This document shows, piece by piece, positions 42,541 through 44,443 of a stretch of DNA of 64,000 nt. Each line of letters begins with the position of its first letter. The stretch's first letter is position 1. Location of the stretch: assembly GCA_020073185.1 (NCBI GenBank), contig JAIQFT010000008.1, forward strand, positions 62,001 through 126,000. The letters are read 5' to 3'. Made by a program: the position numbers and the translations under genes. The notes under the pieces were generated by a model. That model was not told where the DNA came from. It saw only the letters and a program-made list of their open reading frames with translations, and ran no database searches. Source of the DNA: Terriglobia bacterium. Lineage in GTDB: Bacteria; Acidobacteriota; Terriglobia; Terriglobales; Acidobacteriaceae.

Positions 42541-42867
42541 ATGGCGCGGAAGGTGACGCCGCGCTGCACAATGAACTTCGTCGGAACTCAGACGAAAATA
42601 GAAAGATGAGCCGGGCCAACCAGCCCGGCTTTTCTGTTCTCCGCGCGCGGCGAAAAACTGACAGGGTCCACTTACCTCAACTCCCTCCCGCTTCGCAGCA
42701 ACCGACAACTGCTAACTTACGGACATTGACCCGCATCCCATTCGGGAATAACATCTGCGAACCCGTGGGGCGTTTCCGCAGTGGGGTGGGAATGGCAGTT
42801 GGCGCGGCACTGCCTTTTGTCTCGGGTTCCCAACACCGTCGCAAATCTCAGACTGGAGGAGGAGCCC
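42541..42867. other. Leader and terminator region, 327 bases without gene
   Basis: Contains the terminator at 42610-42633 and otherwise no supported ORF. The last 20 bases carry the ggaggaggag ribosome site of the EXORDIUM-like gene. I see no clear promoter. Confidence 0.4.
42610..42633 (+). terminator. Rho-independent terminator after the 76-residue gene
   Basis: Stem gccgggc/gcccggc (42610-42616 and 42623-42629) with a six-base loop, followed directly by tttt. Confidence 0.8.
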
Positions 42868-43845
42868 ATGATGGCTCGGAGGAAGGGTTTGCCTTGGAAG
42901 GTATTGGTATTTGTTGTGCTCGTGGCCAGCGCTGCCTTGGTTGGCGCGCAACAGACGCGGGATTCGAAAGACCTGGCACCCACCGGCAAGGGGTGGGGCG
43001 AAGCTTCGCAGCAAGCTCCTGATCGCGTGGACCACGCTGGGGTGAATGGCAACGCCGGATTGGCCAGAATCACCTGCCCCAACGGCATCTGTTACCACGG
43101 CGGGCCGGTGATGGGAAGCAGTCCCACCATTTATTACATCTGGTACGGCAACTGGAGCGGGAGCGGAACCAGCCATCCCATCTCGGATAGCGCCATCACA
43201 CAGGGTCTGCTGAATACCCTCCTCGACGGGCTGACGGGCTCGCCGTACGAGCATATCAACACCACCTACAGCATCTCGGGAACCGCGGTTACCGGCAACG
43301 TGACCAATGGCGGGGACGTGTCGGACAACTACTCGCACGGCACGGCGCTGTCGGACGCCGCTATCAAAGCCGTTGTCTCGGCAAAAATCACCAGCGGGGC
43401 ATTGCCGTCGGATAGCAACGGCGTCTACTTCGTGCTGACCTCATCGGATGTCAATGAAACATCCGGCTTCTGCACCCAGTACTGCGGGTGGCACACGCAC
43501 GGCACCATTGCGGGGAAGGACATCAAGCACGCCTTCGTCGGCAATCCGGATCGCTGCCCGTCGGCCTGCGAGTGGCAGACCACCAGCCCGAACAACGACA
43601 GCGGGGCCGACGGCATGGCGAGCATCATCGCGCACGAGCAGGAGGAGGCGATTTCCGATCCCGATCTCAACGCTTGGTACGATCGCCGGGGCGCCGAAAA
43701 TGCCGACAAATGCGCCTGGACCTTCGGCACTACGCACACCGCGTCGAACGGATCGCTGTACAACGTCACGCTGGCAAGCTCCAACTTCCTGATCCAGCGG
43801 AACTGGGTCAATGCCGGCGGCGGATCCTGTGCCATGAGCTACTGA
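42868..43845 (+). CDS. Secreted EXORDIUM/PHI-1-like protein
   Basis: 325 residues. A signal peptide (MMARRKGLPWKVLVFVVLVASAALVGA) precedes a domain that follows the plant EXORDIUM (PHI-1) family: YYIWYGNWS, LTSSDV, a CGxHxH pattern (CGWHTH), a VGN followed by CPSACEW, and PNND-G-DGM. An extra HEQEEA motif (IIAHEQEEAISDPDLNAWY) resembles a gluzincin-type HE site, but metalloprotease activity is not shown. Plant EXO proteins are apoplastic growth-response proteins. The gene is bounded by terminators (42610 and 43867). The start ATG is a good SD match. Confidence 0.8.
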   Translation: MMARRKGLPWKVLVFVVLVASAALVGAQQTRDSKDLAPTGKGWGEASQQAPDRVDHAGVNGNAGLARITCPNGICYHGGPVMGSSPTIYYIWYGNWSGSGTSHPISDSAITQGLLNTLLDGLTGSPYEHINTTYSISGTAVTGNVTNGGDVSDNYSHGTALSDAAIKAVVSAKITSGALPSDSNGVYFVLTSSDVNETSGFCTQYCGWHTHGTIAGKDIKHAFVGNPDRCPSACEWQTTSPNNDSGADGMASIIAHEQEEAISDPDLNAWYDRRGAENADKCAWTFGTTHTASNGSLYNVTLASSNFLIQRNWVNAGGGSCAMSY

Positions 43846-43866
43846 CTGGGAGCGAATTTTCGTAAG

Positions 43867-43900
43867 CGGGCGGCCTGAATAAGCGCCGCCCGTTTTGTTT
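43867..43900 (+). terminator. Rho-independent terminator after the EXO-like gene
   Basis: Stem cgggcggc/gccgcccg (43867-43874 and 43885-43892) with a ten-base loop and a ttttgttt tail. Confidence 0.85.
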
Positions 43901-43933: not shown

Positions 43934-44443
43934 ATGAAGAGAATAATCACGACAGTCCTGCTCGTCCTGGCGCAGGTTTCGATCAGCTCGGCACAACAGA
44001 CCAAGCCGGGTGCGCCGGCGGGCAGTCGCATCCCCACAGCAACGCGGCTGGTGGTTACCTTCCACGACCTGGAGCGACAATTGACGATTGCCCTGCGGAA
44101 GAACGACGCGGCCACGCTGGACCGCTTGCTTGCCGGCGAGTTCGAAGTGTGGACACCGCAGCCGCCCGGCGAGCCGGTCCCACGCGCCGATTGGCTGCAG
44201 CAGCGCCGGTCAGTTGGCGTGCCGGAGGCGTTCAGCATCCGCCAAATGGCGGTGCGGGGGTTAGATGACCACGCCGTGGCCAGCTTCGTTCTGATCGAAG
44301 GCGCCGGCGCACGACAGACTGCTCAATTCGTCGTTGACCTCTGGGCGCGCAGCGGCGGCGAGTGGAAACTGACCGATCGCTATGCTTCCCAGGTGCCACC
44401 CGCGCCATACTCGGGGGAGAGAAAGCCAACAGGCAAAGACTAG
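43934..44443 (+). CDS. Secreted NTF2/DUF4440-like protein
   Basis: 169 residues. A signal peptide (MKRIITTVLLVLAQVSISSAQ) precedes a small alpha+beta domain: LERQLTIALRKNDAATLDRLLAGEFEVWTP and a C-terminal strand WARSGGEWKLTDRY, typical of the NTF2/SnoaL fold. The function is unknown. The GTG at 43931 precedes the ATG by one codon. Confidence 0.75.
   Translation: MKRIITTVLLVLAQVSISSAQQTKPGAPAGSRIPTATRLVVTFHDLERQLTIALRKNDAATLDRLLAGEFEVWTPQPPGEPVPRADWLQQRRSVGVPEAFSIRQMAVRGLDDHAVASFVLIEGAGARQTAQFVVDLWARSGGEWKLTDRYASQVPPAPYSGERKPTGKD

Follow-up and report, generated by a model that had tools for sequence, protein, structure and literature searches.

Here we present a family of secreted bacterial proteins, related to the plant EXORDIUM and PHI-1 proteins, whose predicted shape and seven invariant residues suggest an unrecognised kind of metal-dependent, protease-like enzyme. 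The member described here comes from a soil bacterium and is encoded at 42868-43845 of the window, the whole stretch of 64,000 nucleotides that was analysed. New here, among other things, is a profile link, made by sequence comparison, between the Pfam family Phi_1 (PF04674) and a wide range of secreted proteins of bacteria, most of which the PF04674 model does not reach.

The Phi_1 gene and its product

The features discussed below, all on the plus strand, are as follows.

42868-43845, plus strand: PF04674 Phi_1 (EXORDIUM-like) secreted protein of 325 aa with a predicted metzincin-like fold (Pfam match, AlphaFold model)
42868-42948, plus strand: predicted Sec signal peptide, residues 1-27 (RRK n-region, hydrophobic core, VGA followed by QQ; by reading the sequence)
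43492-43494, plus strand: H209 (CGWH), invariant across the broad superfamily (alignments)
43633-43659, plus strand: HEQEEAISD, with H256, E257, E260 and D264, predicted active-site helix (alignments, AlphaFold model)
43696-43713, plus strand: ENADKC, with E277, D280 and C282 (alignments)
43864-43895, plus strand: terminator-like hairpin, then TTTTGTTTG (shuffle z -2.3)
43934-44443, plus strand: secreted DUF4440 (SnoaL/NTF2-like) protein of 169 aa, conserved neighbour (PF14534, 42.7 bits)

The open reading frame lies at the coordinates given for it, from the ATG at 42868 to the stop at 43843-43845, and encodes 325 aa. An earlier note on this DNA had assigned the product to the EXORDIUM family from a set of short motifs and had staked the assignment on a profile search with PF04674. 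The quoted motifs are all present, and PF04674 is the sole Pfam match of the protein, at 100.1 bits (E 1.9e-28, residues 75-292) against a curated cut-off of 25 bits. The signal peptide was also borne out, a typical Sec-type signal, MMARRKGLPWKVLVFVVLVASAALVGA followed by QQ, being read at the N-terminus of the translation, as was the HE motif: HEQEEA is present, and none of the 101 aligned bacterial members departs from its H256, E257 or E260. A search of NCBIfam with the 325-aa protein returned no family, and in sequence searches neither the protein nor the broad profile described below matched any PDB entry.

The gene is the only PF04674 copy in the source genome. Compared with its nearest homologue, an acidobacterial protein 88% identical (L002), it has a dN/dS of 0.15, indicating strong purifying selection, so the reading frame is a selected gene. 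Between the signal peptide and the domain, the N-terminal part of the homologue alignment has a conserved PTGKGxG segment, which could be a propeptide or a packing strand.

Seven invariant residues in a broad superfamily

An alignment of 101 close bacterial homologues (A1), every one of which matches PF04674, was used as a profile and retrieved remote relatives in Myxococcota, Rudaea and Acidobacteriota. These are mostly longer and apparently secreted; those scanned one by one matched no named family over the domain, and no NCBIfam family covered the domain in the broad set. In a divergent alignment of 48 rows (A2), with a mean column identity of 11%, PF04674 matches 17 rows and leaves the rest unmatched. 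Exactly seven columns of A2 are invariant, namely H209, H256, E257, E260, D264, E277 and D280, numbered as in the Phi_1 protein, while YYIWYG and similar family hallmarks drift among the remote relatives. Among 32 remote sequences, H209 is present in all and the other six residues in 31; the sole exception (L176), which resembles a broken gene or a chance match, was excluded from A2. Seven fixed polar residues in a domain that otherwise drifts suggest an active site.

The bacterial members share with the EXORDIUM/PHI-1 family of PF04674 the common domain (residues 75-292), the signal peptide and the CGxH, CPxxC and DGM motifs. They differ in an invariant H-E-x-x-E-x3-D and E-x2-D site that the profile does not fix, in often adjoining a secreted DUF4440 gene, and in belonging to a wider set that PF04674 mostly misses.

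A congener (G112) without PF04674 carries a remote HExxE relative, with HELSEARTDP and no DUF4440 partner (L171).

Predicted fold and comparison with metzincins

The AlphaFold model of the Phi_1 protein, built on A1, has a pLDDT of 91.6 and a pTM of 0.91. Foldseek found no PDB match to it at E under 0.001, with metalloproteinases ranking high, and a fold search of BFVD gave no significant match. In VIA-align, essentially all rows listed were metzincins or ADAM relatives, inactive ones included; the best Z was 9.1, the best matches aligned about 160 residues at an rmsd of about 3.8, and rank 50 still had a Z of 7.7, compared with the usual 4-5 for models without a relative. As an independent check a second member, 25% identical to the Phi_1 protein (L175), was modelled (pLDDT 87.1). 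Its top Foldseek match was the adamalysin BaP1 (E 5.3e-4, probability 1.00), and metzincins, among them archaemetzincins, filled all 50 VIA-align rows listed (Z 8.1-9.3). In metzincins the helix bearing the HE motif comes after the sheet. The Phi_1 models are predicted to have this same order of strands and helices, with the HExxE helix after the sheet, and it is in this order and in the best solved-structure matches that they resemble adamalysin/ADAM, archaemetzincin and pappalysin. The metzincin fold is here a predicted one, found in two models of about 25% identity with VIA-align Z up to 9.1 and 9.3. The earlier suggestion of a common domain with possible proteolytic activity gains from these models, which match metzincin peptidases, and from the invariance of the HE residues.

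The sequence signature, in contrast, departs from that of metzincins, which have HExxHxxGxxH/D where the Phi_1 family has HExxExxxD. Position +4 of the Phi_1 motif is Glu in 101/101 close homologues and in 48/48 rows of the broad set, +7 is Thr or Ser (Gly in metzincins), and +8 is Asp. No Met-turn methionine was found after the motif, the best Met column reaching 56% in the close homologues, where the protein of the window has Val, and 19% in the broad set. Compared by hhalign with 25 acidobacterial M43 pappalysin domains, M43 being the one metzincin family compared, the profile showed no similarity (probability 0.1%). Since both the HExxH signature and the Met-turn methionine are absent, the family cannot be called a metzincin by definition; that it works like one is what we infer. 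A zincin-like domain described as having lost its Met-turn is known in the mini-zincins, or DUF1025 (PF06262; PMC3890501). The Phi_1 family shares this lack with them, but their HExxHxxGxxD is not found in it.

A conserved DUF4440 neighbour

The Phi_1 gene and a secreted DUF4440 gene occur together as a conserved pair. The DUF4440 gene of the window starts 88 bp downstream of the Phi_1 gene. Across 91 loci with at least 700 bp of downstream sequence, a close relative of it lies within 2.5 kb in 39: 29/33 in Pseudomonadota, 8/32 in Acidobacteriota, none of 11 in other phyla, and 2 of 15 loci from genome searches, one of which is the window's own. With 11 DUF4440 genes in the 4.66 Mb of the source genome, we estimate that one would lie within 2.5 kb by chance at about 1% of loci. 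In 34 of the 39 cases the neighbour is on the same strand and within 305 bp downstream. Furthermore, in nine genomes with the pair, the only strong match to this DUF4440 subfamily is the gene adjoining Phi_1 (95-237 bits, versus at most 33 for others), and the congener without PF04674 has no strong match to the subfamily. The invariant residues of the secreted subfamily are T, R, F, E, F, D, W, W and R.

The earlier note had given the Phi_1 gene its own terminator. There is indeed a hairpin at 43864-43895, but with a conserved secreted gene beginning so close behind it the Phi_1 gene is less solitary than was implied. A consensus terminator scan did not list the hairpin, probably owing to its longer loop. 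Because it stands between the two genes of the window, read-through from Phi_1 into DUF4440 is not assured.

Another strong GC-rich hairpin with a T-rich tail lies at 42608-42631, downstream of the preceding gene. A cluster of minus-strand open frames, seen at 24 loci in the neighbourhood scan, was discounted as an apparent shadow of the Phi_1 gene.

Distribution and ancestry in bacteria

A homologue of EXO in Solibacter (Acidobacteria) was published by Schroeder et al. 2009 (PMC2661892). The bacterial family is far wider: one scan of 84,980 species genomes gave 308 related loci, the best 80 of which fall in Acidobacteriota, Pseudomonadota, Myxococcota, Actinomycetota, Verrucomicrobiota, Elusimicrobiota and Armatimonadota. 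Given the 2009 report and this spread over many phyla, the gene of the window is an ordinary acidobacterial copy and no surprise. The distribution is patchy, with 13/297 Acidobacteriota genomes positive by the Pfam model and 26/396 by the bacterial profile, 14/296 genomes in the phylum of an actinomycete member and 2/398 in that of a Mizugakiibacter member.

In a gene tree of bacterial and viral-contig members, the gene falls inside a set of 25 rows, all of them either Acidobacteriota or unlabelled (SH-aLRT 97). Elsewhere in the tree phyla are intermixed, which fits transfer between bacteria; paralogues or mislabelled bins could also cause such mixing. A bin titled Bordetella parapertussis and an Acidobacteriota genome of the same class as the source carry identical Phi_1 proteins (L066 and L084), so the title of the bin is probably a mislabel.

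Searches for the family among plasmids found one replicon, of Gemmatirosa, and a search among phages found no match. Eleven IMG/VR contigs catalogued as viral (L098-L108) encode family members, and several of these may be misfiled bacterial DNA; L107 and L108 are very divergent, with no PF04674 match and a C-terminal Ig domain. A genome of the same family as the source has four tandem Phi_1 genes (G249:C1:227165-232254; L090, L095-L097), open frames of 325-380 aa.

Relationship to plant EXORDIUM

The earlier note had raised cross-kingdom transfer. Recent import of a plant EXO gene into the bacterium would account for the clear motif similarity to a family, PF04674, that was first described in plants. 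Set against it are hundreds of bacterial loci in many phyla, the position of the gene within the Acidobacteriota clade (SH-aLRT 97), the conserved bacterial neighbour and a bacterial HE site that the PF04674 profile does not enforce. We regard such an import as exceedingly improbable and reject it on the family distribution and the tree. Transfer between bacteria and land plants is plausible. Cotton authors did not find EXO genes in algae (PMC8481617), and our literature search for a bacterial origin of EXO, or for its transfer, found no paper.

As a proxy for whether plant members keep the HE site, point mutants of the Phi_1 protein were scored against PF04674. Alanine cost 5.0-6.6 bits at W92, Y93, C206, C230, C234, W270 and C282, 3.8-4.5 bits at G94, H209 and D248, and 2.6-2.9 bits at E277 and G287, versus only 0.6-2.0 bits at H256, E257, E260, D264 and D280; elsewhere among the positions tried, just Y134 and Y187 were as cheap. 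Furthermore, D264N raised the score by 3.5 bits, H256S (-0.7 bit) and E257L (+0.2 bit) were neutral, and chimeras with plant-like strings, those given below for EXO and EXO-LIKE proteins, scored equally with HE and SL to within 0.4 bit. Because mutants of the HE site cost little, the profile leaves the site unfixed, as would be expected if some or many plant members lack HE; this indirectly favours the statement of the earlier note that the plant proteins lack the motif. To our knowledge EXO and PHI-1 proper are without HE and carry LASLLAATATNPFG, and some EXO-LIKE paralogues have AHELAE.ATNPLVNAWYAG, then E..D.C. If these strings are right, EXO itself would have lost a site that some paralogues in plants retain.

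It is conceivable, as a tentative scenario that we hold to be less than evenly probable, that plant EXORDIUM/PHI-1 descend from bacterial secreted metzincin-like metalloenzymes (HExxExxxD...ExxD) gained by early land plants, with the site kept in some paralogues and EXO proper a growth-regulating pseudoenzyme without it. EXORDIUM proteins have a role in plant growth, and the literature examined gives no biochemical activity for them (including PMC2661892).

Proposed function

We lean towards the view that the Phi_1 protein is exported, has a metzincin-like fold and acts as a metal-dependent hydrolase, probably on peptide bonds, although we know of no activity for any Phi_1 protein. In such an enzyme H256, E260 and probably D264 or H209 would be the metal ligands, with Glu replacing the second zinc His; E257 would act as general base, and E277 and D280 would either round off the site or bind a second ion. 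More tentatively, the enzyme may act outside the cell on a soil peptide or protein, and its secreted DUF4440 partner might bind substrate or product, or restrain it. A modular secreted enzyme is suited by the fusions of the Phi_1 domain to TIG, chitobiase C-terminal, DUF2341 and laminin-G domains (L074:5971-8445) and to bacterial Ig domains (L081:1635-2855). Against the hydrolase stand the Z of 8-9 for the modelled fold, only just above the level reached by models without a relative, the HExxExxxD motif, the lack of a Met column of at least 60% in the close homologues or at least 20% in the broad set, and the absence of any M43 or PDB sequence match.

The same fold might serve without catalysis, in a secreted binding protein stabilised by calcium or another metal, with the invariant acidic residues binding a structural ion as they would in the catalytically dead ADAM22. 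The Glu at the second zinc His and the predominance of acids among the other invariant residues would suit this, inactive ADAM22 is among the top fold matches, and the plant relatives are apoplastic growth proteins without known activity. We think it rather unlikely, since invariant H209 and H256 beside a Glu at the general-base position would be unusual for a calcium site, and the fixity of seven residues while the fold drifts to 11% identity is the behaviour of a catalytic site. A metal-dependent enzyme of this fold acting on a non-peptide substrate, such as a polysaccharide or small esters, seems to us improbable. It draws on the laminin-G/ConA-like and chitobiase C-terminal fusions, on the plant relatives being cell-wall proteins and on the neighbour being of the SnoaL/NTF2 type, which often binds small molecules; yet where the fold matches are characterised enzymes, they are peptidases, and lectin-like accessory domains occur on secreted peptidases too.

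Significance

The bacterial reading of Phi_1 offers a first hypothesis on the function or ancestry of the plant proteins that can be put to the test. Should the bacterial branch prove to be a metzincin-type metalloenzyme, there would be a concrete active site to mutate and an inhibitor class to try, and one could predict which plant paralogues retain activity and which have become pseudoenzymes. The metzincin-like proteins would also gain a branch in which Glu replaces the second zinc His, one that is found across soil bacteria and that Pfam and NCBIfam mostly lack.
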